A stretch of 59,325 nt of DNA from Aromatoleum toluolicum (GTDB lineage: Bacteria > Pseudomonadota > Gammaproteobacteria > Burkholderiales > Rhodocyclaceae). This document shows, piece by piece, positions 1,325-22,178 of the stretch. Each line of letters opens with the position of its first letter. Position 1 is the first letter of the stretch. Position numbers and translations under genes: made by a program. Where the stretch lies: positions 1 through 59,325 of the forward strand of contig NZ_WTVS01000033.1 of the NCBI RefSeq assembly GCF_012911005.2. Direction: 5' to 3'. The notes beneath the pieces are model-generated. The model had not been told where the DNA came from. It made no database searches and saw nothing but the letters and a program-made list of their open reading frames with translations.

Positions 1325-1341
1325 TATTCCTGTCCCGAATA
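1325..1341. promoter_or_regulatory. Operator-like dyad TATTCC-N5-CGAATA
   Basis: This is a near-perfect 17-bp dyad (TATTCC, five bases, CGAATA), 158 bp before the start of the HMGS-like gene. The inner T-N11-A geometry fits a LysR-type box. The same pattern occurs at 4285, 5431, 13672 and 15882, each before a transcription unit of the same catabolic module. Confidence 0.6.
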
Positions 1342-1415
1342 CCTCGGTGTGGATTGTTAATTGCTGACCCATTCGGTCGCTAGTACTCTGATTTAGCGGT
1401 TCCGTTCTTGGTGCC

Positions 1416-1439
1416 GATAATCAAATCACAGTGATTATC
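1416..1439. promoter_or_regulatory. Inverted repeat GATAATCA-N8-TGATTATC
   Basis: This perfect 8-bp inverted repeat with an 8-bp spacer is centred about 71 bp before the start at 1499, a position suited to a promoter-proximal regulator site. I see no second copy in the window, so it is either specific to this promoter or a chance dyad. Confidence 0.4.
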
Positions 1440-1498
1440 GAACTTTCGAATTGATAGCTGTAAAACCGGGGCGCGCACTAATAAATGGGAGTTCTTCG

Positions 1499-2944
1499 AT
1501 GAGCAACGATTTCGGTATTTTGTCGTGTGGCGCGTATGTTCCGCGTCTTCGACTGCAGCGAAAGAGTATCGCGATATCCAATAGCTGGTTTTCGCCAGGC
1601 TTGCGCGGGCTCGCCCGCGGTGAGCGCGCGATGGCGAATTGGGATGAGGATGTCATTACGATGGCGGTGGAGGCGGCGCGGAGCTGCCTGCAGGGCAGAA
1701 AGCGCTCGGGCGTCGGTCAGCTGACCTTTGCTTCCACGACCTTCCCGTTCGACGACCGCCAGAATGCCGGTGTTGTCGCAAACGCATTGAACCTCAAGTC
1801 TTCCCTCGCGGTGCTGGACGCATCGGGGAGCCAGCGTGCAGGCGCATCGGCCCTCTCCGCAGCGTTCGGCTCCTCGGCAGGGAGTGATTTTCTCGTCGTT
1901 GCGAGCGAAAAGCGTCAGGCAAAGGCGGCGAGCCCGCAGGAAATGCACTACGGCGACGGCGCAGCCGCAATACTTGTCGGCCGGGGCCAGCCGATCGCGC
2001 GCCTGATCGGGTCGCATAGCGAGACGGTCGATTTCGTCGATCATTTCCGCGGCCGTGGTGCCGATTACGATTACGGGTGGGAGGAGCGGTGGATCCGCGA
2101 AGAGGGCTACCAGAAGATCGTGCCCCGCGCGATCGGTACGGCCCTCAAGTCGGCTGAGGTGAGCCCGGAATCGATCACGCACTTTTGTATGCCCTGCACG
2201 CTGTCGCGTGTCGGTGCGGCGGTCGCAAAGGCGGCGGGAATCAAGGAAGAGGCGGTGCGGGACAATCTCGCCGCGGTCTGCGGCGACACCGGTACGGCGC
2301 ATTCGCTGCTGATGCTCGCGCACGCACTGGAGGACGCCAAGCCGGGTGACCGGATCCTGGTTGCGGCCTTCGGACAGGGTTGCGAGGTGCTGCTCTTCGA
2401 AGTGACCGACGCGATTTCCGAAGCCGCCGCGCGCAAGTGCGTGAGTGCGACGCTGGCGCGCCGGAAGGAAGAGTCGAATTACCAGAAATTCCTCGCGTTC
2501 AACGATACCGTCGTACTCGAGCATGGGATGCGTTCCGAGATGGACAAGATCACGACGCTCACCTCGCTCTATCGGAACCGCGACACGGTCATGGGGATGG
2601 TCGGCGGTCGCTGCCGGTGCTGCGGAACGCGCCAATTCCCGCGCGGCCGCTATTGCGTCAACCCCGAATGCAATGCGCTGGATTCGCAGGACGACCTTCC
2701 GTTCTCCGATACGCCTGCGACCGTGATGACCTATACGGCGGACTCGCTCACCTACAGCCGGAATCCGCCGCATTACTACGGCATGGTCAGGTTCGAAGGC
2801 GGCGGGCGTCTCGTGATGGATTTTGCCGACGTCGATGAAGGCAGGATGGAAGTGGGTTTGCCTATGCGAATGATGTTCCGGGTCAAGGACTACGATCATG
2901 CGCGGGGTTTTGTTCGGTATTTCTGGAAAGCTGCGCCGATCTGA
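1499..2944 (+). CDS. HMG-CoA-synthase-like protein fused to a DUF35 OB-fold
   Basis: The 481-residue protein has two parts. Residues 1 to about 330 have a thiolase-like HMG-CoA synthase fold. Residues about 360-481 form a DUF35 domain: a zinc ribbon C372-x2-C375-x10-C386-x4-C391, then an OB-fold. DUF35 subunits bind thiolases (for example BbsA with BbsB in anaerobic toluene breakdown), and the next gene is a thiolase 18 bp downstream, so a complex is likely. At the expected HMGS nucleophile the protein reads DASGSQRAGAS, with no Cys. The usual Glu and His positions (STTFPF and FCMPCTL) also look changed, so it may be a scaffold or carry out altered chemistry. I chose the start at 1499 because GGGAG lies about 8 bp upstream; an ATG at 1451 has no such site. 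Confidence 0.8.
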   Translation: MSNDFGILSCGAYVPRLRLQRKSIAISNSWFSPGLRGLARGERAMANWDEDVITMAVEAARSCLQGRKRSGVGQLTFASTTFPFDDRQNAGVVANALNLKSSLAVLDASGSQRAGASALSAAFGSSAGSDFLVVASEKRQAKAASPQEMHYGDGAAAILVGRGQPIARLIGSHSETVDFVDHFRGRGADYDYGWEERWIREEGYQKIVPRAIGTALKSAEVSPESITHFCMPCTLSRVGAAVAKAAGIKEEAVRDNLAAVCGDTGTAHSLLMLAHALEDAKPGDRILVAAFGQGCEVLLFEVTDAISEAAARKCVSATLARRKEESNYQKFLAFNDTVVLEHGMRSEMDKITTLTSLYRNRDTVMGMVGGRCRCCGTRQFPRGRYCVNPECNALDSQDDLPFSDTPATVMTYTADSLTYSRNPPHYYGMVRFEGGGRLVMDFADVDEGRMEVGLPMRMMFRVKDYDHARGFVRYFWKAAPI

Positions 2945-2962
2945 GCTGAGGAGGAACAAGAA

Positions 2963-4165
2963 ATGGCAACTGGAATTCGCGACAAGGTGGTAATCCTCGG
3001 TATGGGGTGCTCGAAGTTCGGCGAGCGCTGGGACTGCAATGCCGAAGATCTGATGGTCGAGGCCTTCGAAGAGTGTCTCAAGGATGCCGGAGTTGAAAGA
3101 AAACAGATCGAAGCGGCATGGTTCGGCACCGCAGCGGACGAGGTAAACGTCGGCAAGTCCGGCACGCCGCTGGCGGTCACGCTGCGCCTTCCGTACATCC
3201 CGGTGACCCGCGTGGAAAATTTCTGCGCAACCGGCACCGAAGCGTTTCGTGGCGCGGTGTATGCGGTGGCGTCGGGCGCTGTGGATATCGCGCTGGCCTT
3301 CGGTGTGGAAAAGCTCAAGGACACGGGTTACCCCGGTCTGCCGCAATTCACCCGTGGCACCTTCAATAACCAGTATTGGGCGAACATGACCGCGCCGGGC
3401 AACTTTGCGCAGCTGGCGTCGGCGTACTGCGCGAAGTACGGCGTCGATCCGAAGGAGCTCAAGCGCGCCATGGCGCACATCTCGGTGAAGAGCCATGCCA
3501 ACGGTTCGCGTAACCCGAAGGCGCATCTCCGGAACCGCATCACCGAGGAAGACGTGCTGAACGCCCCGATGGTCGCCGAGCCGCTGGGCCTGTACGACTG
3601 CTGCGGTGTGTCGGACGGTGCGGCCTGCGCCATCGTGACCACCCCCGACATCGCCCGCGCGCTTGGAAAGAAGGACCTGGTTTCGGTCAAGGCGGTCCAG
3701 CTTGCGGTGTCCAACGGCGAGGAAGCGTACTTCGACAAGTGGGACGGTTCCTACGTGGCGACGACGCGCGCGGCGGCAAAGCGCGCCTACCGCGAAGCGG
3801 GCATCGACGATCCGCGATCGCAGCTCTCGCTCATCGATGTGCACGACTGCTTCTCGGTGACCGAGCTCGTGACGATGGAGGATCTCGGCATCTCCCAGGA
3901 CGGCAAGGCCATCGGTGACGTGCTGGACGGCTTTTACGACGCGGACGGCGGCATTCCGTGCCAGATCGACGGCGGCCTGAAGTGCTTCGGGCATCCGGTC
4001 GGGGCGTCGGGCCTGCGGATGCTGTACGAGATGAATCTGCAGATCAGCGGGCGTGCGGGCGAGCGGCAACTGTCCAATCCTGTCCTCGGCCTCACGCACA
4101 ACCTGGGCGGCTGGCCGAGCCAGAACGTGTCGGCGGTGACCATCGTCGGTGCCTATGGCGCCTGA
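2963..4165 (+). CDS. Thiolase, SCP2/DUF35-partner type
   Basis: This 400-residue thiolase-superfamily protein belongs to the SCP2-like branch that works with DUF35 proteins. The nucleophile is likely C88 (ENFCATGTEA). The HDCF motif (LIDVHDCFSV) and the GHPVGASG motif supply the other catalytic residues, so it appears active, unlike Ltp2-type aldolases that lack the Cys. The likely reaction is CoA-dependent cleavage of a 3-oxoacyl-CoA, possibly branched or ring-bearing; a retro-aldol role cannot be excluded. A strong GAGGAGG site precedes the ATG. It forms an operon with the HMGS/DUF35 gene (18 bp gap). Confidence 0.88.
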   Translation: MATGIRDKVVILGMGCSKFGERWDCNAEDLMVEAFEECLKDAGVERKQIEAAWFGTAADEVNVGKSGTPLAVTLRLPYIPVTRVENFCATGTEAFRGAVYAVASGAVDIALAFGVEKLKDTGYPGLPQFTRGTFNNQYWANMTAPGNFAQLASAYCAKYGVDPKELKRAMAHISVKSHANGSRNPKAHLRNRITEEDVLNAPMVAEPLGLYDCCGVSDGAACAIVTTPDIARALGKKDLVSVKAVQLAVSNGEEAYFDKWDGSYVATTRAAAKRAYREAGIDDPRSQLSLIDVHDCFSVTELVTMEDLGISQDGKAIGDVLDGFYDADGGIPCQIDGGLKCFGHPVGASGLRMLYEMNLQISGRAGERQLSNPVLGLTHNLGGWPSQNVSAVTIVGAYGA

Positions 4166-4284
4166 TTGACGTGTCCTCCTGTGATCGTGAGCGCCGCATT
4201 CCGGAGACCGGTGACGCGCTTTCGGTCGCAGGAGGATATGTTCTTGCGGTTTCAACCTTGCAGGTGTTTCGCCCATTAAGCGGC

Positions 4285-4301
4285 TATTCCAACCGGGAAT
4301 A
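4285..4301. promoter_or_regulatory. Operator-like dyad TATTCC-N5-GGAATA
   Basis: This is a perfect 17-bp dyad, 115 bp before the LysR gene start, and the best plus-strand copy of the module-wide motif. It shares flanking bases with the site at 1325 (CTATTCC before, GAATAC after). The location fits autoregulation of the LysR gene. Confidence 0.65.
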
Positions 4302-4340
4302 CGTCGGGGCGCCGAATTGATTGCTGGGCCTTTTGGCGGG

Positions 4341-4372
4341 GGATAAGGTTTTGGCACCGGTGCCCCTTATCC
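4341..4372. promoter_or_regulatory. Nested hairpin in the LysR leader
   Basis: An outer inverted repeat GGATAAGG/CCTTATCC encloses a perfect 12-bp palindrome GGCACCGGTGCC, with a TTTT bulge on the left side. It lies 44 bp before the LysR start and would form either a stable leader hairpin or a DNA operator. No U-tract follows, so a simple terminator is unlikely. Confidence 0.45.
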
Positions 4373-4415
4373 GACCGGCAATCGAGGCACTTCAATTGGC
4401 AAGGCGGGACATCGC

Positions 4416-5321
4416 ATGGACCTACGTGATCTGCAGTACCTCATCGCAATTGCGGAAGCGGGCAGCCTCGTGCGGGCGGCGGAATTGCTGGGGACCACTC
4501 AGCCGACGCTGTCGAAGGCCGTGACCCGGCTCGAACGGCTGTTTCGCGTCAAATTGATCGAACGCCTTGCCCGCGGTGTGCGGCTTACCTCGTATGGTGA
4601 AGCGGTCGTGGGCAGGATGGGGAGTATCGACGTCGGCGTCCGCGACATGTTTGCCGAGCTGAGGGATCTGCGCCAGGGAAAGACGGGGCAGATCACCTTC
4701 GGGGTGGGGACGGGAATTCCTCCGGCATTCGTGGCGACGGCGATCAAGCCGCTGTCGCTCAGCAACGATATTACTTTCACGATCGTCGGTGGCCAGGCGG
4801 ACGCCTTGTTGCGCTCGGTGCGCGCGGGCGATATCGAATTTGCGGTCACCATCGCGCCCGCATCGAAAGGGAACCTCGTGTGGCAAAAGCTGTTCGATGA
4901 CCCGATGGTCCCGATCGCTCACAAGAACCATCCGCTTCTCCAGGCTCGGAATGTGAACTGGGAGGATCTCGCCGCGGCCCGATGGATCGTTCCCGTCGAA
5001 GGGACGACCACGCGCGAATGGTTCGAAAATCAGTTCCGCAAACGCGAACTGGTGCCTCCCGTTCCCGCCATCGCCCTAGATTCGGTGGCTGGCTGGGCCG
5101 GACTCGGGCCAACGCTCGATCTGCTCGCGCTGCTGCCTGCGTCGAGTGTCAATTATCTGCCCGTGGCCGCGCTGGGCTCCATTGTCGGTACGCCGGACGA
5201 TTGGCGGTCCGAAAGGGCGGTCGGCGTCGTTCACCGAAGTGGTGGATATCTCAGCGCAGCGGCTAAACGCCTGATCGAAAGTCTCTCGAAAGTGGCCGAA
5301 CGCATGGGCCGCAGCGACTGA
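4416..5321 (+). CDS. LysR-family transcriptional regulator
   Basis: The protein has 301 residues, the standard LysR length. Residues 1-60 form the winged helix-turn-helix (MDLRDLQYLIAIAEAGS, AAELLGTTQPTLSKAV). The rest is the periplasmic-binding-like effector domain (LTFGVGT-type strand near residue 90). It lies just after the HMGS/thiolase pair on the same strand and is the only classical regulator inside region A. The T-N11-A dyads found upstream of five transcription units here make it the best candidate regulator of the module. The effector would probably be a pathway CoA ester or free acid, but the sequence does not show which. Confidence 0.92.
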   Translation: MDLRDLQYLIAIAEAGSLVRAAELLGTTQPTLSKAVTRLERLFRVKLIERLARGVRLTSYGEAVVGRMGSIDVGVRDMFAELRDLRQGKTGQITFGVGTGIPPAFVATAIKPLSLSNDITFTIVGGQADALLRSVRAGDIEFAVTIAPASKGNLVWQKLFDDPMVPIAHKNHPLLQARNVNWEDLAAARWIVPVEGTTTREWFENQFRKRELVPPVPAIALDSVAGWAGLGPTLDLLALLPASSVNYLPVAALGSIVGTPDDWRSERAVGVVHRSGGYLSAAAKRLIESLSKVAERMGRSD

Positions 5322-5324
5322 CGA

Positions 5325-5346
5325 CAGGTCCAGGCCTGGCGACCTG
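5325..5346 (+). terminator. Weak terminator-like hairpin after LysR
   Basis: CAGGTC and GACCTG pair around a 10-base loop that itself holds CAGGCCTG, starting 3 bp after the LysR stop. No clear U-tract follows, so termination would be weak or Rho-assisted. Confidence 0.3.
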
Positions 5347-5430
5347 CCAATCATTTTCCGGCTTCCCGATTAACGAATCTTTCGTGGGATCCCCCGTTCG
5401 CCACGATTCATTTTTCCCTCATTTTAATGA

Positions 5431-5447
5431 TATGCCCGTCGTGAATA
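5431..5447. promoter_or_regulatory. Degenerate operator-like dyad TATGCC-N5-TGAATA
   Basis: The site has one mismatch per half against TATTCC-N5-GGAATA, with identical spacing and the same GAATACG right flank as the 4285 site. It lies 212 bp before the acyl-CoA dehydrogenase pair. Confidence 0.45.
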
Positions 5448-5658
5448 CGTTCCTGCGGCGATTAAGTGGCTGGTGAAAATCGCGTGGGGTATCGTCAATC
5501 ACACGTAGGCCAACACAAGCGCAGTCGATTCCAATTGCGAAAATCAGGATTTCGGCTGTCTTTGAAATTGACTGCGAAATTGCCAGACATGCGAATGGGC
5601 TTGGCAAAGGTGAAGGTTGTCGTGAAACGACCGGACTCATACCTCTAGGATCAATTCC

Positions 5659-6810
5659 ATGGACCTCAATTACTCTGACGAAGAACTCGTGTTTCGAGAC
5701 GAGATCCGCAGCTGGCTGGCGGCGAATCTTCCCCAGGACCTCCGCGAGAAGGTCGAAACCTACGCCGAGCTGACCCGCGATGATCTGATGCGCTGGCACC
5801 GCATCCTCGCCCAAAAAGGATGGGTGGCGCCCTCGTGGCAGAAGGAATGGGGCGGTACGGATTGGACGCCCGTGCAGCGCAATATCTTCGAGGAGGAGTG
5901 CGGCTTTGCCAGTGCGCCGCCGCTGATGCTGTTCGGCCTGCACATGTGCGGCCCGGTGCTGCAGCGATTCGGTACCCAGGCTCAAAAGGAACGTTTCCTG
6001 CCGCGCATCTACAACGGCGACGATTTCTGGTGCCAGGGGTATTCCGAGCCGGGCTCGGGTTCGGACCTGGCCTCCTTGAAGACGCGGGCGGAACGACAGG
6101 GCGATCACTACGTAGTGAATGGCCAGAAGATCTGGACGACGCTGGCCCATTACGCCGACTGGATTTTCTGCCTGGTCCGTGCGGATCCGAGCACCGACAA
6201 GAAGCAGGATGGAATCTCCTTCCTTCTCATCGACATGAAGACGCCCGGAATTACCGTGCGGCCTTTGATGCTGATGGACGGGGTGCGCCACGTCAATGAG
6301 GTCTTCTTCGACGATGTGAAGGTGCCCGTAGAGAACCTCGTGCACGAGGAGGGCAAGGGCTGGACGGTCGCGAAATACCTGCTCGGGCACGAGCGGATGA
6401 GCGCCGGACGGACCGGGGTCTCCAAGCGCGAGCTCGCGAAACTGAAGGAACTGGCGGCTTCCCAGCCCGGGAACGACGGCAAGGCGATCATCGAAGATCC
6501 GCATTTCCGGGCCAAGCTCACGCGCCTCGAAGTCGAACTTATGGCGCTCGAGATCACCAACCTGCGTTTCCTCGACGAAATGCGCCGCACCGGCCAGCCG
6601 CCGGGGGCGGATGTCTCGATGCTCAAGATCAAGGGCACCGAAATTCAGCAGACGCTCACCGAGCTGATGATGCGCGCGGCCGATCCCGCGGATCTGGAGA
6701 AGTACGAAGTCCTTGCCCGGCGCTATTTCAACATGCGCAAGACGACGATCTACGGCGGATCGAACGAAGTGCAGCGCAACATCATCGCGAAAATGACTTT
6801 TGGACTGTGA
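5659..6810 (+). CDS. Acyl-CoA dehydrogenase, large-type subunit (PimC-like)
   Basis: This 383-residue FAD enzyme has the N-terminal helical domain, the beta domain with the substrate/FAD motif GYSEPGSGSDLASL at about residues 125-138, and a C-terminal domain ending IYGGSNEVQRNIIAKMTFGL. It is followed 7 bp later by a second, divergent acyl-CoA dehydrogenase. Such pairs (PimC/PimD, steroid FadE pairs) usually form heterotetramers acting on bulky or dicarboxylic acyl-CoAs. Expected reaction: 2,3-dehydrogenation of the pathway acyl-CoA, with electrons passed to EtfAB (10.5-12.2 kb) and then to ETF-QO (22.2 kb). The start has an AGGATC-type ribosome site. Confidence 0.88.
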   Translation: MDLNYSDEELVFRDEIRSWLAANLPQDLREKVETYAELTRDDLMRWHRILAQKGWVAPSWQKEWGGTDWTPVQRNIFEEECGFASAPPLMLFGLHMCGPVLQRFGTQAQKERFLPRIYNGDDFWCQGYSEPGSGSDLASLKTRAERQGDHYVVNGQKIWTTLAHYADWIFCLVRADPSTDKKQDGISFLLIDMKTPGITVRPLMLMDGVRHVNEVFFDDVKVPVENLVHEEGKGWTVAKYLLGHERMSAGRTGVSKRELAKLKELAASQPGNDGKAIIEDPHFRAKLTRLEVELMALEITNLRFLDEMRRTGQPPGADVSMLKIKGTEIQQTLTELMMRAADPADLEKYEVLARRYFNMRKTTIYGGSNEVQRNIIAKMTFGL

Positions 6811-6817
6811 GGTAGGT

Positions 6818-7915
6818 ATGAACTTCGAGAGCAATGAGGAGCAGCGGCTGCTCACAGATTCGGTGCGGCGTTTCATCGACAAGGATTACGATTTCGAGAA
6901 ACGACGCAAGATCATCGCCTCGCCCGAGGGCTGGGATTCCAATGCCTGGGCAGCGCTCGCGGAAATGGGAGTGACGGCGCTGGCATTGCCTGCCGAGTAC
7001 GATGGCTTCGACGGCGGCGCGGTCGATCTGATGGGCATCATGGAGGCCTTCGGCGCGGGGCTGGTCGTCGAACCCTTCCTGCCGACGGTGCTCGCCGGTC
7101 GTCTCGTCATGGCGGCGGGCAGCGAGGCGCAGAGAAGGGCGATCCTGCCGCGCGTCGCCAGTGGCGAACTTCGCCTGGCATTCGCGCATCTCGAGCGCGG
7201 CGCTCGTTTCGACCTCTCGCGCGTCGGCGCGGAAGCGAAACGCACCGGGGACGCTTGGACGATCTCGGGCGAAAAACGCGCGGTGGTCGGCGCCCCGGTG
7301 GCCGGGAAGCTCGTGGTTTCCGCGCGCACGCCGAGCGGACTCGGCTTGTTCCTGATCGACACGCAAGACGCCGAATTGAAGCGCCACGCCACGGTCGACG
7401 GCATGCGTGTCGCCGATGTCCTGCTCTTCAACGCGAAGGCGGAACTCCTGGGCGACGGGGCCGCGACCCTGGCGAAGATCGAGGAAGTGAATGACTTCGG
7501 CACCGCGCTGGTGTGCGCCGAGGCGGTCGGGGCGATGAAGTACGCGTGCGACACGACGCTCGACTACCTGAAGACCCGCAAGCAGTTCGGCGTGACGATC
7601 GGCTCTTTCCAGGCGCTGCAGCACCGCATGGTCGACATGTATATCGCCAGCGAGCTGTCGCGGTCGATGACCTGCCTCGCGTGCTCGAAAGTCGATGCGA
7701 CGGGGGACGCGAAAGAAAGGGCGCACGCCGTTTCCGCCGCGAAGATCAAGATTTCCGACAGCGCGCGCCTGATCAGCCAGGAAGCCGTGCAGCTGCATGG
7801 CGGCATGGGCATGACCGAGGAACTGAAGGTGTCGCACACCTTCCGGCGCCTGACCGTCATCGCGGAGCAATTCGGTGACGAGGACTATCACCTGACGCGG
7901 TTCGGGGCGCTGTAA
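6818..7915 (+). CDS. Acyl-CoA dehydrogenase, small-type subunit (PimD-like)
   Basis: This 365-residue acyl-CoA dehydrogenase homologue starts MNFESNEEQRLLTDSVRRF and carries the HGGMGMTEEL motif near residue 335. It is divergent from the gene just upstream, and its middle (FAHLERGARFDL) lacks the usual TEPGSGSD-type motif seen in that partner. This is typical of the second subunit of heteromeric acyl-CoA dehydrogenases. GAGGTAGG lies just before the ATG at 6818. The 7-bp gap supports translational coupling and a shared complex. Confidence 0.87.
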   Translation: MNFESNEEQRLLTDSVRRFIDKDYDFEKRRKIIASPEGWDSNAWAALAEMGVTALALPAEYDGFDGGAVDLMGIMEAFGAGLVVEPFLPTVLAGRLVMAAGSEAQRRAILPRVASGELRLAFAHLERGARFDLSRVGAEAKRTGDAWTISGEKRAVVGAPVAGKLVVSARTPSGLGLFLIDTQDAELKRHATVDGMRVADVLLFNAKAELLGDGAATLAKIEEVNDFGTALVCAEAVGAMKYACDTTLDYLKTRKQFGVTIGSFQALQHRMVDMYIASELSRSMTCLACSKVDATGDAKERAHAVSAAKIKISDSARLISQEAVQLHGGMGMTEELKVSHTFRRLTVIAEQFGDEDYHLTRFGAL

Positions 7916-7950
7916 GAAGCGTACGCGCCGTGCAGCGGGCAAGTCGGATG

Positions 7951-7986
7951 CGGCGGTCCGGAGCGTAGTGTCCGGACCGGCCGCCG
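7951..7986 (+). terminator. GC-rich hairpin between dehydrogenase and SDR genes
   Basis: GGTCCGGA and TCCGGACC pair across an 8-base loop, and flanking GGCG/CGCC can extend the stem with a bulge. There is no U-tract. It could reduce readthrough or protect the upstream mRNA end rather than fully terminate. Confidence 0.35.
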
Positions 7987-8029
7987 AAAGTCGGGCGCTC
8001 TTGACCGACAAAAACATGGAGACAAGGTA

Positions 8030-8944
8030 ATGTCGAAGATGCTGGAAGGAAAGGTGGTGGTGGTGACGGGCGCAGGGGGCGGCATCGGCCGCGACTTCGC
8101 GCTGGCGATGGCGGCGAACGGCGCGCGCGTCGTCGTGAACGACATCGGGGCCTCGGTCGCGGGCGAAGGCAACGACGCCGGTCCGGCGCAGAAGGTGGTC
8201 GACGAGATCAAGGCGAAAGGCGGGTCGGCCGTCGCCAACACCGACAGCGTCGCGGACTGGGATTCGGCGCAACGGATCGTGCAGTGTGCGATGGACACGT
8301 TCGGCCAGGTCGACGTTGTCGTCAATAATGCCGGCATCCTGCGTGACCGCTTCTTCTTCAACATGTCGATCGAGGAGTGGAAGGCGGTCATCGACGTCCA
8401 TCTCAACGGATCGTTCTATGTGGCGCGCGCGGCGGCGCCCCATTTCAAGAACCAGGGTTCCGGCCGCTACATTCACATGACGTCCACGTCGGGGCTGATC
8501 GGCCAGACCGGCCAGGCCAACTACTCCGCGGCCAAGCTCGGGGTGACGGCGCTGTCGCGCTCCATCGCGCTCGACATGGCGAAGTTCAATGTGACGTCGA
8601 ACTGCATCGCCCCGTTCGCATGGAGCCGCATGGCGGGCACGATTCCGTCGGAAACGCCCGAACAGCAGGCGCGCCTCGAGAAGTTCAAGACGATGGAAAC
8701 CGGCAAGATCGCGCCGCTGGCGGTCTATCTTGCGAGTGATGGCGCCGCGGGTGTCAGTGGCCAGATCTTCTGCGTGCGCTCCAACGAGCTGTTCCTGATG
8801 TCGCAGAGCCGTCCGCTCCGTTCGGTTCATCATGCCGAAGGGTGGACGCCGCAGAGCATTGCGGAGATCGCGCTGCCGGCACTGAAGCCGAATCTCTACC
8901 CGCTGGAGCGGACGCCGGACGTCTTCAGCTGGGATCCGATTTAA
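8030..8944 (+). CDS. 3-hydroxyacyl-CoA dehydrogenase-like SDR
   Basis: This 304-residue short-chain dehydrogenase resembles the dehydrogenase part of peroxisomal multifunctional enzyme 2 (17-beta-HSD type 4). Features are the NAD(P) motif TGAGGGIG (residues 14-21), a long insertion DIGASVAGEGNDAGP typical of that group, NNAG near residue 100, and the catalytic Ser plus YSAAK near residue 165. The C-terminal 60 residues extend past the core fold. Likely reaction: oxidation of a 3-hydroxyacyl-CoA to the 3-oxoacyl-CoA that feeds the thiolase. The ATG has a GGAGACAAGG site. It is probably in the same operon as the dehydrogenase pair, 114 bp upstream. Confidence 0.88.
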   Translation: MSKMLEGKVVVVTGAGGGIGRDFALAMAANGARVVVNDIGASVAGEGNDAGPAQKVVDEIKAKGGSAVANTDSVADWDSAQRIVQCAMDTFGQVDVVVNNAGILRDRFFFNMSIEEWKAVIDVHLNGSFYVARAAAPHFKNQGSGRYIHMTSTSGLIGQTGQANYSAAKLGVTALSRSIALDMAKFNVTSNCIAPFAWSRMAGTIPSETPEQQARLEKFKTMETGKIAPLAVYLASDGAAGVSGQIFCVRSNELFLMSQSRPLRSVHHAEGWTPQSIAEIALPALKPNLYPLERTPDVFSWDPI

Positions 8945-8957
8945 GCGACGCAGGAGA

Positions 8958-8987
8958 CCTGCTACCGTGGCAAGGCCCGGTAGCAGG
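8958..8987 (+). terminator. Strong hairpin after the SDR gene
   Basis: A perfect 10-bp stem, CCTGCTACCG/CGGTAGCAGG, with a 10-base loop starts 13 bp after the SDR stop. Only a weak T-rich run (GTTGTT) follows, so it is a probable but not textbook terminator. Confidence 0.55.
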
Positions 8988-9020
8988 AGTCGTTGTTCAC
9001 TTGATCTGAGGTGAGTCGAA

Positions 9021-10016
9021 ATGGCATTACGTGCGCGTAGATTGGCGATGCTGGGCCTGGGTTCCGCGTTGCTCCTGGGATTGATCGTGCCGCGGGCGGC
9101 ACAGGCGGAGGATGTCTGGCCTTCGCGCCAGATCACGATGATTACACCCTCGTCGGCGGGTTCGGGGCCGGACGCGCTGGCGCGCGCGATGGCCCAGCGT
9201 TTGTCCGAGGCGCTGAAGCAGCCGGTCATCGTCGATAACCGTCCGGGCGCGAGTGGCGTCATCGCGATCAATGCAGTGTCCAAGGCGAAGAATGACGGCT
9301 ACACGCTGTTGTATACGAGTGCATCGGCGGCCGTCGTGTGGCCCGCAGTCGGAAAATCCGTGCCGTATGACGTCATGCGCGATCTCACTCCGGTGGCGCA
9401 GACCGCTGCGGGGGGCGTACTGCTGCTCGTGAACAGCGAAGTGCCGGCGAAGAATCTGCAGGAACTGATCGAGCTGGTGAAGGCCAATCCGGGCAAGTTC
9501 AGTTACGGCACCTGGGCGACGGGGTCGTCGGGGCATCTGATGATGGAATGGCTCAAGGGACGGACCGGGATGAAGATGACCCACGTGCCGTACCGGACGA
9601 CAACCCAGATGCTCACGGAACTGTCGTCGGGCGTGCTCAAGATCGGCTGGGCCGATCCCAGCGCGCCGGTGCCCTTCCTGCGCACGGGCAAGATTCGGGG
9701 CATCGTGATCTCCGGTAACACCCGTGCGCCGCAGGTTCCGGATATCCCGACGCTGGACGAAGCGGGGCATAAGTTCAATGCGCTGGGGTGGTTCGGCATC
9801 TTCGCGCCCGCGGGAACGAATCCGGCGGTCGTCAAACGGCTCTCCGACGAGGTGAACAGGATTCAGGGGTCTTCGGACATGGGCGGCTTGATGGCGAACC
9901 TGAACTTCGAGGCTCCGCCGAAGAAATCTCCGGAGCAGTTCCGCGAAATCGTGCAGAACGACCTCACGACATGGAAGAAGATCGCGACGGACTCTAACAT
10001 CAGCGTCGAAAACTGA
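9021..10016 (+). CDS. Bug/TctC-family periplasmic substrate-binding protein
   Basis: This 331-residue Bug-family receptor has a clear signal peptide (residues 1-29, basic start, LGSALLLGLIVP core, cleavage near AQA-ED). The mature part starts WPSRQITMITPSSAGSGPDALARAMA, the family fingerprint. It contains the IVDNRPGASG loop and the YGTWATGSSGH loop that shape the ligand site. It would bind a carboxylate in the periplasm and deliver it to TctBA, encoded at 16.0-18.0 kb. Those genes are separated from it by a minus-strand block, so the pairing is inferred from their common module. GAGGTG precedes the ATG. Confidence 0.92.
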   Translation: MALRARRLAMLGLGSALLLGLIVPRAAQAEDVWPSRQITMITPSSAGSGPDALARAMAQRLSEALKQPVIVDNRPGASGVIAINAVSKAKNDGYTLLYTSASAAVVWPAVGKSVPYDVMRDLTPVAQTAAGGVLLLVNSEVPAKNLQELIELVKANPGKFSYGTWATGSSGHLMMEWLKGRTGMKMTHVPYRTTTQMLTELSSGVLKIGWADPSAPVPFLRTGKIRGIVISGNTRAPQVPDIPTLDEAGHKFNALGWFGIFAPAGTNPAVVKRLSDEVNRIQGSSDMGGLMANLNFEAPPKKSPEQFREIVQNDLTTWKKIATDSNISVEN

Positions 10017-10030
10017 GTTGAGGTGACGTG

Positions 10031-10062
10031 CGCGAGCCCTGCCCAGGTGGGCAGGGCTCGCG
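10031..10062 (+). terminator. Intrinsic-type terminator after the Bug gene
   Basis: A perfect 14-bp GC-rich stem (CGCGAGCCCTGCCC and its complement) closes a 4-base AGGT loop, 14 bp after the Bug stop. The tail ACTTTGTG is only partly U-rich, but the stem is the strongest in this part of the window. Confidence 0.75.
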
Positions 10063-10094
10063 ACTTTGTGCCACTGCCCGTCCGGAGAACAATC

Positions 10095-10460
10095 GTGGAT
10101 AAGGTCGAAGCGCTTCCCTCGGAGCGCGACGCCGCACCAGCGTGCGGAAAGGCGTCTTCTCGCCTGAGCGAGGAAAACCGCCGGTTTCAGGGAACGGGAG
10201 GGCGAAGCCAGGAGAACCGTTCCCTCGGCTTTCGTCCGGCCTTCTTCGACGGCATCACGGGCATCATCTACGCATCCCGCTTTTCAAATGGAATGGACGC
10301 CCCGTTCCATCTCCTCGATGGTCTGCCTGATGAGGTGGTCATGCGGCGTCATGCTTCCGGGCAGGTTGCCGAGGTCAAGACCTCGCTCGTCTCGGGCTTC
10401 CTGAGAGACGGCCTCTTTTATACCCGGGAGCAGGCGGCCGCGTTTGTTGCCGGCGCCTGA
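10095..10460 (+). CDS. Small conserved hypothetical protein
   Basis: This predicted 121-residue protein starts at a GTG with CCGGAGA 7 bp upstream; a longer frame could start at 10023, but that start sits inside the sequence leading to a terminator hairpin. The C-terminal half (SLGFRPAFFDGITG, FHLLDGLPDEVV, SGFLRDGLFYTREQAAAF) reads like a small family of unknown function that I recall as common near mobile elements in Burkholderiales and Rhodocyclales. No enzyme motif, signal peptide or membrane segment is visible. It points towards the convergent etfA gene. Confidence 0.55.
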   Translation: MDKVEALPSERDAAPACGKASSRLSEENRRFQGTGGRSQENRSLGFRPAFFDGITGIIYASRFSNGMDAPFHLLDGLPDEVVMRRHASGQVAEVKTSLVSGFLRDGLFYTREQAAAFVAGA

Positions 10461-10480
10461 AGAAATTCGATCGAACATCG

Positions 10481-10510
10481 GCTGCCGGGCCATGAATTGG
10501 CACCGGCAGC
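10481..10510. terminator. Bidirectional hairpin between convergent genes
   Basis: GCTGCCGG-GCCA pairs with TGGC-A-CCGGCAGC around a TGAAT loop, with one bulged A. It lies between the stops of the plus-strand hypothetical gene and the minus-strand etfA, so it could end both transcripts. Confidence 0.55.
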
Positions 10511-10528
10511 GGCCTTCAGTTGAGCCCC

Positions 10529-11458
10529 TCAGAGCTCATTGACGAGCGCGGGGATGGCCTCGAACAGATCGGCCTCGAGTCCATAGTCGGCAATGCCGAA
10601 AATCGGCGCTTCAGGATCCTTGTTGATGGCCACGATGATCCTGGAGTCCTTCATGCCTGCCAGATGCTGGATCGCGCCGCTGATCCCGCATGCGATGTAG
10701 AGCTCGGGCGCGACGATCTTGCCCGTCTGGCCGATCTGCAGGTCGTTCGGCGCGTAGCCGGAATCCACGGCTGCGCGGCTGGCACCGATCGCCGCGCCCA
10801 GCTTGTCGGCCAGCGGGGTCAGCACTTCGGAGAAGCGCTCGCTCGAGCCCAGCGCCCGTCCGCCTGACACCACGATCTTTGCCGCCGTCAGTTCGGGACG
10901 ATCGCTCTTGGTGATCTGGCGTTCGACGAACGAGCTCTTGCCGTAATCGGCAACGGCGCCGATCGTCTCGATGGGGGCATCGCCGCCGGACTCTGCCGCC
11001 TGGAAGCCGGTGATACGGACCGTGAGGACCTTCACGGCGTCCTCGCTCTGGACGACGGCGACGGCGTTTCCGGCGTAGATCGTGCGCTCGAACGTGTCGG
11101 CCGCGTGGACCGCCGTGATGTCGCTGACCTGCGCGACGTCGAGGAGGGCGGCAACCCGCGGGGCGATGTTTTTCCCCCAGGCCGTAGCAGGGAACAGGAT
11201 GTGGCTGTAGGTCGATGCGATTTTCGTGACCTGGTTTGCCACGTTTTCCGCCAATCCACTTGCGAAAGCGGAGCTGTCGGCGTGAAGAACCTTGCTGACG
11301 CCGCTTACCCTCGCCGCGAGTTGTGCGACGGCGGACGCGTCCGCGCCCGCCACCAGCACGTGTACGTCGCCGCCACATTGCGTTGCCGCGGTGATGGTGT
11401 TGAGGGTCGCTCCCTTGAGCGTCTGGTTGTCGTGTTCGGCAATGACGAGTGTGCTCAT
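10529..11458 (-). CDS. etfA: Electron transfer flavoprotein alpha subunit
   Basis: The protein has 309 residues, the normal EtfA length. The N-terminal half is the ETF domain ([20 protein letters not shown]). The C-terminal FAD domain has [11 protein letters not shown], the [19 protein letters not shown] loop, and the end signature [20 protein letters not shown]. With EtfB it accepts electrons from the acyl-CoA dehydrogenases of the module and passes them to ETF-QO. The gene follows etfB with a 10-bp gap. A dedicated copy inside a catabolic module is common in Rhodocyclales and suggests co-regulation with the substrate. Confidence 0.96.
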
Positions 11459-11468
11459 GTCGTGATCC

Positions 11469-12218
11469 TCAGATGACCTTGGCTTCGTTGCGCAGCTTCG
11501 CCACCAGCGTCGCCACGTCGGGTACCTTGATGCCGGCCGAGCGCTTTGCAGGCTCGCCGACCTTGAGCGTCCGCAGACGCGGCGTTACATCCACGCCGAG
11601 ATCGGCGGGTGTCGTGACATCGAGCGGCTTCTTCTTCGCTTTCATGATGTTCGGCAGCGTCACGTATCGCGGTTCGTTCAGGCGCAAGTCGGTCGTCACG
11701 AGTGCGGGCAGGGTGAGCTTCAGCGTTTCGAGCCCGCCGTCGATTTCGCGCGTCACCAGCGCCGCCCCGTCGGTCAGCCGCAGCTTGGACGCGTAGGTGG
11801 CTTGCGGCAGGTCGGCCAGGGCCGCCAGCATCTGGCCGGTCTGGTTGCAGTCGTCGTCGATGGCCTGCTTGCCCAGGATGATCAGGTCTGGCCGTTCGTC
11901 ATGAACGACACGGTTGAGGAGTTTCGCGACGGCCAGGGGCTGCAGTTCGGCGTCGGTCTCGACCAGGATGGCGCGGTCGGCGCCGATCGCAAGGGCGGTG
12001 CGCAAGGTTTCCTGGCACTGGCCGGTGCCGCAGGAAACGACGAGCACTTCCGTCGCCGCACCTCGCTCCTTCTGCCGCACGGCTTCTTCGACGGCGATTT
12101 CGTCGAAGGGATTCATGCTCATCTTGACGTTCGCGGTTTCTACCCCGGACCCGTCTCCCTTCACGGAAATCTTCACGTTGTAGTCGACAACGCGTTTTAC
12201 AGCGACAAGTACTTTCAT
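11469..12218 (-). CDS. etfB: Electron transfer flavoprotein beta subunit
   Basis: This 249-residue EtfB begins with the hallmark [17 protein letters not shown]. It has the AMP/adenine-site region ([29 protein letters not shown]) and the recognition loop region [24 protein letters not shown] near residue 130. I chose the ATG at 12218 because it matches the conserved N-terminus; a GTG at 12227 would add three residues. It pairs with EtfA just downstream. A strong terminator separates it from the CoA-transferase gene upstream, so its promoter or readthrough control is not obvious. Confidence 0.96.
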
Positions 12219-12230
12219 GAGATTCACTCG

Positions 12231-12299
12231 AAAAAAAAGGGCGGTCTGGACGCAACAATTCGAACCTGCGTCCGAATTCCATGCGCCTTGAACCGCCCT
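12231..12299 (-). terminator. Two-stem terminator between CoA-transferase and etfB
   Basis: Read on the minus strand, AGGGCGGT pairs with ACCGCCCT and an internal GGACGCA pairs with TGCGTCC. A run of eight T follows. This is a textbook U-tract terminator placed between two same-strand genes, so it should end or attenuate the CoA-transferase transcript before etfBA. Confidence 0.75.
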
Positions 12300-12305
12300 G
12301 TTGGA

Positions 12306-13502
12306 CTAGATGATGCCCTTCGCGCGCAGACGGTCCTGCTCCTTCGGGGAAAGGTCCAGCAGCTCGCCGTAGATTTCCGCGTTGTTCTGTCCCAGCGCGC
12401 CGCCTGTCGACCGCACGCTGCCGGGATCCCTGGCAAATCGCGGAACGACGTCCTGCATGCGTACGCTGCCGAAATCGGCGTCGGGCACGGAGGTGATCGC
12501 CTTGCGGGCCTGCATCTGCGGATCGGCGAAGATCTGGTCTACGGAATAGACCGGCGCGATCGTGCCCTGCGCGTTCTGGAAGGCTGAAAGAACCTCGTCA
12601 AGAGTGTGCTTCGCACACCACGCGGCGAAGATCTCGACCAGCTCCTTCCGGTGCTCGACACGCGAGCCATTCGTGGCAAAACGCGGATCGTCGATCAGGT
12701 CGGGGCGTCCGATCGCACGGCAGTTGTTTGCAAAAAGCGGCCCGGTCGATCCGGCAAGCGACACCCAACGATTGTCCCGGCAGGGAAACACCGCTGACGG
12801 CGCCGAGAACTGATTGGAGTTGCCCTCTCGCTCCTGAATATTCCCGAGCTGGTCGTACTTGATCGCGAGGTTATCGACGAGCTTGAAGGTCGCTTCGGTC
12901 AGGGAGAGGTCGATCTCCTCGCCGGGTGCCTCGGGATCGCGTGCGCGCTTCCAGCACGCCGCCAGCACGCCGAGGGCACCGAAAAGGCCCCCGACCGCAT
13001 CGCCGATCGGGTACCCGGCATGCATCGGTTCGCCGTCGGGTTCGCCCGTGATGTGCGCCAGTCCGCCCATCGCCTCGAAGATGCGTGCGAACCCGGGGCG
13101 ATCGCGATACGGCCCGGACTGACCGAAACCCGTAGCGCGCAGGATCACGAGGCGCGGTTGTACCGCCCACATGGCTTCCGCGGTCAGGCCCCAGCGGTCG
13201 AGCGTGCCGGGCCGGAAGTTCTCGATGAGAACGTCGAAATGCGGCAGCAGCTTCAGGAAGACTTCGACGCCTTCGGCTTGGCGAAGATCGAGGGAGATGA
13301 ATTTCTTGTTGCGGTTGATCACTTTCCACCAAAGCGGCCTGCCGTCCTTGAAGGGGGGGAGGTTGCGTGCGCCATCCCCTTCGCCCGGCAATTCGACTTT
13401 GAGTACTTCGGCCCCGTAATCGCCGAGCAATGCGGCGGCGGTCGGGGCGGCGATGATGGTTGCGATGTCGAGGACACGCAAACCTGCAAGAGGTCCGCTC
13501 AT
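12306..13502 (-). CDS. Family III CoA-transferase (CaiB/BaiF type)
   Basis: This 398-residue family III CoA-transferase has the N-terminal signature GPLAGLRVLDIATIIAAP and the likely catalytic aspartate D168 (YPIGDAVGGL), matching D169 of CaiB and formyl-CoA transferase. Such enzymes move CoA between carboxylic acids through a glutamyl/aspartyl anhydride mechanism. BbsEF in anaerobic toluene breakdown is one example, but here only one subunit is encoded. It probably activates the imported acid using an intermediate or product CoA ester. GGAGA precedes the ATG, and an operator-like dyad lies 170 bp upstream. Confidence 0.92.
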   Translation of the reverse strand: MSGPLAGLRVLDIATIIAAPTAAALLGDYGAEVLKVELPGEGDGARNLPPFKDGRPLWWKVINRNKKFISLDLRQAEGVEVFLKLLPHFDVLIENFRPGTLDRWGLTAEAMWAVQPRLVILRATGFGQSGPYRDRPGFARIFEAMGGLAHITGEPDGEPMHAGYPIGDAVGGLFGALGVLAACWKRARDPEAPGEEIDLSLTEATFKLVDNLAIKYDQLGNIQEREGNSNQFSAPSAVFPCRDNRWVSLAGSTGPLFANNCRAIGRPDLIDDPRFATNGSRVEHRKELVEIFAAWCAKHTLDEVLSAFQNAQGTIAPVYSVDQIFADPQMQARKAITSVPDADFGSVRMQDVVPRFARDPGSVRSTGGALGQNNAEIYGELLDLSPKEQDRLRAKGII

Positions 13503-13671
13503 CAGTTTGTCTCCATTTTGCGAGGTTCAGTTCGAATTTCCGGCCCGCTCGGAATGGACACGGTCCTGCAATTCGGTAATCGATAACGACAGCGGATATA
13601 ACTGCCGTATTTATCGCAAAAACACAGTAGCGCGCTGAATTGGGTGTCGCAATCAAGTTGTTGCGGCGTCG

Positions 13672-13688
13672 TATTCCGCAATGGAATA
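13672..13688. promoter_or_regulatory. Perfect operator-like dyad TATTCC-N5-GGAATA
   Basis: This is a perfect 17-bp dyad 170 bp before the minus-strand CoA-transferase start, with the same flanks (CTATTCC, GAATACG) when read on the minus strand as the sites at 1325 and 4285. It is the strongest support, together with 4285, for a shared regulator. Confidence 0.65.
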
Positions 13689-13724
13689 GCGTCGGCCGGG
13701 GTTTGCGCGGTCCGCTTCAGGAAT

Positions 13725-13752
13725 AAGAAAAGGCGCGGCAGATGCCGCGCCC
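13725..13752 (-). terminator. Intrinsic terminator of the DUF1302 gene
   Basis: A perfect 9-bp GC stem, GGCGCGGCA/TGCCGCGCC, with a 2-base loop is followed on the minus strand by TTTTCTTATT. It sits 26 bp after the DUF1302 stop and is a clear U-tract terminator. Confidence 0.85.
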
Positions 13753-13777
13753 CGCAATTTGTCCGAGGTCGAATGAG

Positions 13778-15637
13778 CTAGAACTTCATCCCGATGTTCA
13801 TCGAAAGGTAACTCCTGTCCTTCAAGGTGTTGTAGTCACCGCCGTCATGGTTCGTCAGCGAAATGGCGGCGAAATAGCGCTTGAGATATTCGACGTCGAG
13901 ACCGAGCACCGTCGTCGTAGCGCCCTCGCTGAAGAGGCCGTCGTAGGACCAGCCGCGCAACCCCTTCGTGTAGGAGAACCTGCCGCGCAGATTGAGGCCG
14001 TCGATGCCGACATTGGCGTACATCAGCGAACCGGCGATCGTCGCGCCGATTGCCTCCTTGCTCACGTAGCCGTTGGTCGTGCACTGCAATTCGGGAAGGT
14101 TGCTCGTGCTGGTGACGGTGCAAACGCCTTTCACAAAGCCTCGTCCTGCCTGTGTCATCCGGCCGTAACGGCGAACCGAGACGTCGGGAAGATCGTTCAC
14201 CCATTTCCCGGCGACCTCGATCGCGATGCTGCCGCCTGCGGCGCCGGCGATACGAAGATCGTTCTTCGCAACGTTGATGCTCAGTTGGGAAACCTCTCGC
14301 GAATCCCATGCGTGCCAGGCTTGCCCGGGCGCGGTATTGAGCCAGTCCTTGTAGAGCAGGTGGGCGGAAGGGGACGCGACCGTTGCATTGAAGGGGCCCA
14401 GCGCATCGGGCGCGTTGAGCATGATCGGCTGATTCGGCCGATACGTACCTTCGGTGCCCAGCGTTATCCCCGTCGAGTCGAACCGGGTAAGGGTGCTGAA
14501 GCCGAATGTCCGTACGTCTTCAGGATATTCCATGCGGTATTTCGTATTGTTTTTCGGGTCGCTTCCGATGACCGGATTCGTGCCCGTGCCGGCGCCGGGC
14601 CGCGTGGACTTGATGAGGTCGATGACCGGCGTCCTGGAATTGTTCTGGAAATAATAGATGCCGGCCCGGGTGTTCAATGCCGTGAGATCGTATCGGAGGG
14701 ACAAGCCGAATTGACCCGCCACGTCTTCGTGCGGGTCGGATACGCGTGCCACGTAATTGCCCGTGGCAGCCCGTTGCGTGTCAGTTCCCGCTGCACCGCC
14801 GCTCATGAGCCGATCACAGCCCGGCTGCATGTAGTCGTTGAGCGAAAGGAAGGTGCCGCACGGATGAACGACGGAATGGGCGTTCGCCAGCTGAACAAAT
14901 CCTTCGAAGGCGAGTTCCTTCGTGAGATTGGCCGTGGCCTGGGCCGCCGGAATCGGTACCAGGACTTCTTCAGGAAGCGCACCGGGCCGAAACGCGGCAG
15001 GGGCATCGACGGGATTGATGGCCTTCAGGCCTCCGCCGATCAGGGAGGCGCGTCCCCAGTCGAAATTCTGTCCTCCCACCTTCCAGCTGACCGGTGTGTC
15101 ACGGAGCGAAGTCTTTCCGAATAGGTAAGCGCTTTGTACGGCCACGCCCGAGAATTTCGCCCGATGGGTGAAAGTGCTGTCGCTCAGCGGCGTGCCATGA
15201 ACGTAGTTGTTGGGATCGTTGCCCCATCGCACGGAATCGTTTTCGAGCGCGAAGTCATTCCACGCCTTGAGCGCCAGAAAACCGCCCCATTGCCCGAGAT
15301 CGACATTCACGCTCCCGTAGGCCTTCAGAACGCGAGAGACGATGGCATTCTTCCCGTAGTTCAAATTGCCGTCGTCGGTGCTTTGACTGCTGGCGTTCTT
15401 GCCTCCCAGGGAATTTCCGGATTTCACCCCGATTGAATTGGCATTGATATAGGGCACGAGCGTCGGTTCGACGTCGTCGGTACGTTGCGCAATTCCGTAG
15501 GTCACGGTTGCGTTCGTGGTGATTTTGACCGGGCTGTTGTCGGGACTTTGGGCAAATGCCGGTGCCGCGGCGCCGACGGCGCCGAGTGCAACAATGCAAT
15601 GAATGGTCCCGTTCCAGCGGTGCGCACTGCGTTTCAT
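13778..15637 (-). CDS. DUF1302-family outer-membrane protein
   Basis: The 619-residue protein has a signal peptide (MKRSAHRW start, core IHCIVALGAVGAAAP, cleavage near AFA-QS) and a long beta-rich body with alternating aromatic residues, ending MNIGMKF with the C-terminal Phe typical of outer-membrane barrels. It matches the DUF1302 family, often encoded with hydrophobic-acid breakdown clusters. The role is probably a channel or uptake barrel for the substrate; this is inferred from context. The start at 15637 has an AAGGAGAC site; a start 33 bp upstream is unlikely. It shares a divergent promoter region with tctBA. Confidence 0.82.
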   Translation of the reverse strand: MKRSAHRWNGTIHCIVALGAVGAAAPAFAQSPDNSPVKITTNATVTYGIAQRTDDVEPTLVPYINANSIGVKSGNSLGGKNASSQSTDDGNLNYGKNAIVSRVLKAYGSVNVDLGQWGGFLALKAWNDFALENDSVRWGNDPNNYVHGTPLSDSTFTHRAKFSGVAVQSAYLFGKTSLRDTPVSWKVGGQNFDWGRASLIGGGLKAINPVDAPAAFRPGALPEEVLVPIPAAQATANLTKELAFEGFVQLANAHSVVHPCGTFLSLNDYMQPGCDRLMSGGAAGTDTQRAATGNYVARVSDPHEDVAGQFGLSLRYDLTALNTRAGIYYFQNNSRTPVIDLIKSTRPGAGTGTNPVIGSDPKNNTKYRMEYPEDVRTFGFSTLTRFDSTGITLGTEGTYRPNQPIMLNAPDALGPFNATVASPSAHLLYKDWLNTAPGQAWHAWDSREVSQLSINVAKNDLRIAGAAGGSIAIEVAGKWVNDLPDVSVRRYGRMTQAGRGFVKGVCTVTSTSNLPELQCTTNGYVSKEAIGATIAGSLMYANVGIDGLNLRGRFSYTKGLRGWSYDGLFSEGATTTVLGLDVEYLKRYFAAISLTNHDGGDYNTLKDRSYLSMNIGMKF

Positions 15638-16015
15638 GATGTCTCCTTCCTTGTTTTGCTCTCTTGGCAATTTGGTTTGCGATCATGTGCGCGCAGCCCG
15701 CAATGAATCCGTTGGCATGAAACGCCGGACGGAGATTGCCCATATGATGCGCAACTGGATGTAACACTAGACCGGTTGCGATTGCCGAGACATCAAATCC
15801 GCGAGCGGAGCTATTCTTTGTTTGGATACCTTCGATCGTTTCTGGGGTGGGAGCCTTACTGCCGATCGCGGAGATCCGCAGTATTACTTTTTGGAATAGA
15901 TTGCCGTAAAAATCGGATTGCTCGCTGAAGAAAGCGAAAGTAGTGTCGTTCGTAAGCGCATAAGGTGGTGCGGTGGGCGCGGATAACTCTAAGGCGAGCA
16001 ATAAAGGAGACGGCG
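15638..16015. other. Divergent regulatory region, DUF1302 and tctBA
   Basis: The 378 bp between divergent genes hold the operator-like dyad at 15882 and ribosome sites at each end. No gene, clear promoter hexamers or further repeat are evident. Confidence 0.5.
15882..15898. promoter_or_regulatory. Operator-like dyad TATTAC-N5-GGAATA
   Basis: The site has one mismatch to the module dyad with conserved spacing. It lies 118 bp before tctB and 245 bp before the DUF1302 start, so it could serve both. Confidence 0.5.
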
Positions 16016-16501: not shown

Positions 16502-16515
16502 GGAGATCGGACATC

Positions 16516-18045: not shown

Positions 18046-18094
18046 TACAGAGTTTCGGCGCGCCCGGGCGCTTCACCTTGCTTCGGATTCGGAA

Positions 18095-22157: not shown

Positions 22158-22178
22158 TTCTTGAAGGAAGCAATGCAT

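Follow-up and report, generated by a model that had tools for sequence, protein, structure and literature searches.

A stretch of 59,325 nucleotides from Aromatoleum toluolicum (NCBI RefSeq contig NZ_WTVS01000033.1, contig C216 of the assembly, hereafter the window) carries a catabolic gene cluster whose transcription units are preceded by inverted repeats of the form TATTCC-N5-GGAATA (the dyad), and these are very likely the recognition sites of one LysR-type regulator that activates eight promoters, namely P0001, encoded within the cluster, with or without its paralogue LysR2, encoded on contig C46. The features on which this proposal draws can be read directly in the DNA, these being the dyads, their fixed spacing from predicted promoter elements, the genome-wide exclusiveness of the resulting composite, its conservation in Herminiimonas sp. 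CN and in a groundwater metagenome-assembled genome (MAG), and its co-occurrence with one type of LysR.

Scanning the window for TATTCC-N5-GGAATA with up to two mismatches revealed exactly five sites, at 1325 (one mismatch), 4285 (none), 5431 (two), 13672 (none) and 15882 (one), in agreement with an initial annotation that had described five dyads, two perfect and the others with one or two mismatches. As that annotation also stated, all five are upstream of units of the cluster, namely the gene of an HMG-CoA-synthase-like (HMGS-like) protein, lysR, the acyl-CoA dehydrogenase pair, the CoA-transferase gene and DUF1302/tctBA. Dinucleotide-shuffled windows (n = 100) contained on average 0.46 dyads and at most 3, with five or more in 0/100, a figure which alone overstates the case since the motif was picked after the sites were known. 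Allowing three mismatches gives 11 places in the window compared to 6.9 expected, and weak dyad matches alone therefore mean little. The whole assembly (6,159,496 bases, 6.16 Mb, in 289 contigs) has 59 dyads with up to two mismatches, six of them in the cluster (five in the window and one on C46), and 16 matches to the backward-read pattern; the 53 dyads outside the cluster are close to the roughly 48 to be expected from shuffling at 0.46 per 59 kb. With at most one mismatch there are six, four in the window, one on C46 (at 3709) and one on C156, and none for the reversed control. In an alignment of 15 of the 18 sites, from which three MAG sites with a promoter shifted by 1 bp were left out, T3 and A15 of the dyad are kept in 15/15, as they are in two further window sites described below (15812 and 19823), and the earlier observation that the inner T-N11-A fits a LysR box is thus borne out. 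The shared outer flanks C and ACG that had been proposed are only partly right, the best-kept flanking position being the G located two bases upstream of the dyad (14/15); on the downstream side a C stands at +4 in 11/15.

Each of the five dyads opens a predicted promoter of rigid layout, in which the dyad is followed by 19 bp, a TTGC-like -35 element, a 17-bp spacer and a -10 element of the form TANNNT. Positions +20 to +23 after the dyad read TTGC in four sites of this genome, TGGC at acad1 and TTGT on C46, and TANNNT is present at +43 to +48 in all six sites of the genome then known (6/6). Both directions were inspected, and the -35/-10 geometry was found toward the expected gene in 6/6 and in the opposite direction in none. 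Distinct dyads with up to two mismatches in the fetched loci were also scored for this geometry (maximum 7), with repeats of one sequence counted once and sites lying close to a locus end excluded; all 37 non-cluster dyads scored 4 or less, and the 11 cluster dyads scored 7 in six cases, 6 in four and 4 in one. Counted from the predicted -10 with an assumed 7-bp step, the dyad centre lies at about -63 from the predicted start in 7/7 window sites. LysR recognition sites with T-N11-A often lie at about -65 from the transcription start (PMC8407307), and a dyad centre near -63 would be at the usual position of such a site. Downstream of the dyad, ATTGC or ATGGC is conserved in the -35 region (alignment columns 36-40), where it is indistinguishable from the -35 element itself.

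Regarding equally good sites elsewhere, a check set out in the initial annotation, one rival was found for the bare dyad (an exact match at C156:8624) and none for the composite promoter at up to three mismatches. The first composite pattern (dyad, 19 bp, TTGC, 19 bp, TANNNT; up to three mismatches), written after the geometry had been seen in the first sites, occurs at six places in the genome, 6/6 of them in the cluster, with none for the reversed control. A refined 24-position pattern was written from the sites that it finds and is therefore informative only through its lack of hits elsewhere; its seven places in this genome, seven in Herminiimonas and two in the MAG are all on module contigs (16/16), and 203 other genomes of the family yielded two single places with three mismatches, in two genomes, compared to one for the reversed control.

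A matrix built solely from eight Herminiimonas and MAG sites was then run on the window, where its highest scores were 48.9 (15882), 43.7 (5431), 35.1 (1325), 31.6 (13672), 24.6 (19823), 19.5 (15812, - strand) and 18.0 (4285), the next-best score, -5.4, being the coaT dyad read in the wrong direction. The best score in 60 resampled windows was 11.6 and that in 56 kb of other DNA of the genome 3.7, and on C46 the matrix gave 44.4 at 3709 and -17 or less elsewhere. Two of the window sites were newly found, one before maoC (19823..19839, + strand; CATGCC-N5-AGAATG, -35 TGGCTC at 19859-19864, -10 TATCGT at 19882-19887) and a weaker one directed toward the DUF1302 gene (15812..15828, - strand; three mismatches, -35 TGTCTC at 15787-15792, -10 TAGTGT at 15764-15769), the latter reached by neither composite pattern and found by the matrix. 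The earlier statement that no dyad precedes other genes of the window thus holds in that there is no sixth site with up to two mismatches, but it had missed these two. Similarly, the site at 15882 had been assigned to DUF1302/tctBA; its promoter geometry is indeed directed toward tctBA, but DUF1302 has its own site at 15812, and a shared divergent operator was rejected because the geometry at 15882 runs only rightward. A chance origin of the dyads in an AT-richer intergenic background, which would be in keeping with the near-random genome-wide frequency of bare dyads at two mismatches, is hardly credible and was rejected given the fixed geometry, the cross-genome matrix prediction and the genome-wide exclusiveness of the composite.

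Herminiimonas sp. CN is described as an uncultivated nitrate-reducing toluene degrader (PMC9795900, PMC5874301, PMC7285207). On the four contigs compared, 16 of the 21 window proteins have a match, the identities being 70-92% for 15 of them and 55% for the tctA1 piece, and no match was detected on these contigs for usp, the 145-aa open reading frame (ORF), DUF1302, etfQO or the LuxR protein. Dyad, -35 and -10 are kept in the HMGS and coaT promoters, the coaT dyad being perfect, with both half-sites kept and a different 5-bp spacer. The composite is also present before two tctB genes and an MFS gene, and Herminiimonas maoC is preceded by a site (L047:3784) equivalent to 19823. The comparison of orthologous promoters that had been recommended thus reveals conservation of the composite for HMGS, coaT, tctB and maoC, as well as for acad1 with a degenerate dyad. 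On Herminiimonas contig C107 (L047:622-1622) a DDE transposase is located between the operator at 11 and a tctB gene, the end of which appears by eye to be joined to that of a tctA gene, as by an internal deletion.

In the MAG (5.2 Mb) one LysR of the P0001 clade was found, 75% identical to P0001, on a 38.7-kb contig carrying six sites. The sole exact dyad of that genome and 3 of its 10 dyads with at most one mismatch are on this contig, and of the six sites two have the exact geometry, one (12086) has an 18-bp -35/-10 spacer and three, which have nearly the same sequence downstream, have the promoter 1 bp further out. The units that these sites face encode a CoA ligase; an AFOR; a FAD protein; an ATP-grasp protein with a molybdopterin oxidoreductase and an SDR; a second SDR; and a Cons_hypoth698 protein with a FAD protein. 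In a comparison covering 1-36.2 kb and 35.0-38.7 kb of the contig, 4 of the 21 window proteins were matched at E 1e-10, LysR at 75% and SDR, TctC and acyl-CoA synthetase at 29-35%. Since a LysR with 75% identity and the operator occur together with enzymes of at most 35%, the operator follows the LysR and not the enzymes. The lysR gene is linked to operators in the window, on C46 and in the MAG, and the cluster's own lysR carries an operator; that the operator follows the LysR and not the enzymes is the strongest sequence evidence that a LysR of the P0001 type would read it. It also supports the view of the initial annotation that the sites mark one regulon, the operator accompanying that LysR even where the neighbouring enzymes differ. 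Tentatively, the rare LysR clade and the composite promoter of about 65 bp might make up a portable regulatory cassette, its inheritance following the regulator and not the enzymes; such a cassette would be placed in front of HMGS, thiolase, acyl-CoA dehydrogenase and CoA-transferase genes in the window genome and in Herminiimonas, whereas in the MAG it would be placed in front of genes for AFOR, a molybdopterin enzyme, SDR, a FAD protein and CoA ligase. In three of the MAG promoters (L042:7092, L042:7236 and L021:5986) the operator is followed by about 30 bp of nearly the same sequence, as would result from the copying of one promoter. The dyad at 9982 of the MAG stops 2 bp short of the start codon of the LysR gene, and its full geometry is directed leftward; it was rejected on both grounds as a rightward lysR promoter.

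P0001 has the domains PF00126 (HTH_1; E 4e-19, residues 3-62) and PF03466 (LysR substrate; E 9e-29, residues 87-292). Its best solved-structure match, although remote, is TsaR (PDB 3fxq; E 3e-20, residues 3-243), the LysR regulator of tsaMBCD. TsaR serves p-toluenesulfonate degradation. As judged from sequence searches, the P0001 clade is isolated and rare. Within the genome the LysR ranking behind the two paralogues is 24% identical to P0001; of the 24 LysR matches counted, which include those two, the others reach at most 33% over the matched stretch. Scanning of genome contigs for close relatives gave three loci in two genomes; at E 1e-60 no relative outside the own genome was detected in 296 family, 398 order, 368 class and 397 phylum genomes, samples which overlap and for which just the first few candidates per genome were scored. 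None was found in plasmids at E 1e-40, and of seven stretches of viral contigs that matched a pattern none was a relative. The conservation footprint is therefore limited to three genomes.

LysR2, 77% identical to P0001 and with the same recognition-helix residues (TQPTLSKAV), is divergent from tctB-tctA1 on C46, with the operator at C46:3709 between them. That LysR2 rather than P0001 works these sites, or that the two share them or form mixed tetramers, is the less likely arrangement, albeit one to be taken seriously given this identity, the common helix and the adjoining operator. Herminiimonas likewise has two copies of the LysR C-terminus (81-82% identity), its LysR being known by the last third alone. 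The single LysR of the clade found with the operators of the MAG and the central location of P0001 in the cluster, where its gene has an operator, argue for P0001, although both would also fit shared sites. The LysR at 4416, named in the initial annotation as the obvious candidate, is thus supported in that the operator travels with that type of LysR, with the caution that LysR2 is an equally good candidate by sequence. The right end of C46 and the left end of the window are two pieces of one tctA gene (tctA1), of which the window has the C-terminal piece (128..646, + strand) and C46 the rest of the gene with its promoter and the operator. An identical 16-bp inverted repeat terminates both pieces, with an identical 8-bp target repeat beside it, and the flanks continue in one frame; an insertion sequence, presumably IS66-like, therefore splits both the locus and the assembly, as seen at window 1-127 and at L017:5367-5493 on C46.

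The exact dyad outside the cluster (C156:8624-8640, locus L016) is located in a divergent promoter between another LysR gene and an FMN oxidoreductase gene. Of 16 further genomes of the genus, at least 7 have a dyad with at most one mismatch at the same place, and on this basis another LysR, such as the one on C156, could be proposed to bind all of the dyads and to link a second regulon to the cluster. This is very improbable: the C156 LysR is 21% identical to P0001 in alignment, the elements at +20 and +43 are absent from its site in both directions, and the P0001 clade was detected in 0/5 of those seven genomes that were sampled for it. The C156 promoter, which has an identical dyad but differs in its LysR, in the downstream sequence and in having no module-spaced -35/-10, was therefore rejected as a member of the regulon.

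In classical LysR-activated promoters (BenM, CbnR and others) the recognition site lies near -65 and the activation site at -35/-10. The window sites are similar in having T-N11-A within an inverted repeat, a computed centre at about -63 from the predicted start and an ATTGC half-site-like sequence at -35, and lysR is likewise inside the cluster with its own operator; unlike the classical promoters, eight promoters of one cluster here have a near-identical composite. The proposed operator-promoter thus consists of a TATKCC-N5-GGAATA dyad centred at about -63, a putative ATTGC-like half-site on the -35 and a predicted TANNNT -10 17 bp further. P0001, with or without LysR2, would sit as a tetramer on the dyad as its high-affinity recognition site, and upon binding of a pathway metabolite, probably an organic acid or its CoA ester, the second dimer would shift on the -35 region and RNA polymerase would be recruited. 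Eight promoters would be co-activated in this way, those of HMGS-DUF35/thiolase, lysR, acad1-acad2-SDR-tctC, coaT-etfBA, DUF1302, tctBA-acs, maoC-mfs3-etfQO and, on C46, tctBA1. Alternatively the regulator might mainly repress, with an effector removing it and thereby freeing the promoters, and the MAG dyad 2 bp before the LysR start codon would be a natural place for self-blocking; this is unlikely, since the dyads of the window genome are upstream of the -35 and leave the promoter uncovered, which is the position of an activator, and the -35 boxes are poor matches to the usual consensus after TTG, as would be expected of activator-dependent promoters.

Several findings weigh against activation of these promoters by a P0001-type LysR. 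The assignment of the LysR to the operator is a prediction, the -35 and -10 are predicted elements of which the -10 requires only three bases, and the -63 is arithmetic. P0001 cannot be singled out from LysR2, their recognition helices being the same, and since an unrelated LysR has the same half-sites the bare dyad is not diagnostic and names no protein, the composite being the diagnostic element. In Herminiimonas 6 of 9 bare dyads with at most one mismatch are off the module contigs, the acad1 promoter has kept -35 and -10 with a dyad of three mismatches, and one composite match (C60:12431, three mismatches) was left unplaced. The DUF1302 site at 15812 is weak, and the 1-bp-shifted (3/6) and 18-bp-spacer (12086) promoters of the MAG count against a strictly fixed geometry. 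Matches to the loose first composite occur in 43 of 296 other family genomes, compared to about 14 for the reversed control (counted from a table), and among the matches listed two have two mismatches, the others three, and none is better. A reverse matrix, built from six sites of the window genome, recovers the Herminiimonas sites and 3/6 MAG sites, missing the three 1-bp-shifted promoters, and assigns a score of 14.0 to a stretch of Herminiimonas DNA (L046) that is unrelated.

Regarding the units themselves, the operator at 1325..1341 (+ strand; -35 TTGCTG at 1361-1366, -10 TACTCT at 1384-1389, predicted start about 1396) precedes a gene for an HMG-CoA-synthase-like or KAS III-like protein with a fused DUF35 OB domain (1499..2944, + strand), its start codon taken from the Herminiimonas comparison, and a thiolase gene of the same unit (2963..4165, + strand). 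The HMGS-like and DUF35 domains have their matches in two different chains, I and E, of a single solved complex (6esq), and the gene adjoins that of the thiolase. The operator of lysR (4285..4301, + strand; -35 TTGCTG at 4321-4326, -10 TAAGGT at 4344-4349, predicted start about 4356) precedes the gene of P0001, the candidate activator (4416..5321, + strand). The operator at 5431..5447 (+ strand; -35 TGGCTG at 5467-5472, -10 TATCGT at 5490-5495) is followed by acad1 and acad2 (PimC/PimD-like), an SDR gene, a TctC receptor gene and the 145-aa ORF (5659..10460, + strand), probably one unit given the spacing. Neither acad1 nor acad2 has an NCBIfam match reaching its cut-off, and the 145-aa ORF at the end of the unit (10023-10460) has no Pfam or NCBIfam match. 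The genes coaT (family III CoA-transferase), etfB and etfA (10529..13502, - strand) read leftward from the operator at 13672..13688 (- strand; -35 TTGCGA at 13647-13652, -10 TACTGT at 13624-13629), and the DUF1302 gene (13778..15637) is also on the - strand. The operator at 15882..15898 (+ strand; -35 TTGCTC at 15918-15923, -10 TAGTGT at 15941-15946) precedes tctB, tctA and an acyl-CoA synthetase gene (16016..19798, + strand), and the site at 19823 precedes genes encoding a MaoC hydratase, an MFS_3 transporter and an ETF-quinone oxidoreductase (19986..23834, + strand), probably co-transcribed. The remainder of the window (24402-59314) encodes a LuxR/MalT-like protein, so named by eye from the sequence, and a second acyl-CoA set (acyl-CoA dehydrogenases, AMP ligases, thiolase, MMPL transporter and a second DUF1302; ten proteins scanned). 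The matrix scan detected no composite site at 27-59 kb, the region with this second gene set and second DUF1302, which serves as an internal control. The products of the regulon suggest transport and a modified beta-oxidation-like route for an imported organic acid.

Among known systems of degraders, the bad-ali cyclohexane carboxylate cluster, for which Herminiimonas sp. CN has a prediction as well, is controlled by BadR, a repressor of the MarR type with an operator CAAN4TTG overlapping -35 boxes (PMC9795900). As in the present case, a single regulator is paired with a single conserved operator in the catabolic clusters of several degraders, whereas P0001 is LysR-type and the dyad here is upstream of the -35. 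Literature searches found neither a LysR operator with TATTCC/GGAATA half-sites nor a description of an HMGS-DUF35/thiolase module in anaerobic degradation, the titles listed being on Neisseria for the former and an isoprene review for the latter, and a search for a LysR with a tripartite tricarboxylate transporter in Aromatoleum gave none. The control proposed for the cluster is very probably a clear-cut new instance of a familiar type of regulation in bacteria. It defines a promoter set for a catabolic module common to the window genome and an uncultivated nitrate-reducing toluene degrader, and the boundary of the regulon shows which enzymes probably work together, including maoC-mfs3-etfQO, DUF1302 and the second transporter on C46. 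The 65-bp promoter and the LysR would be a ready reporter pair for finding the substrate.

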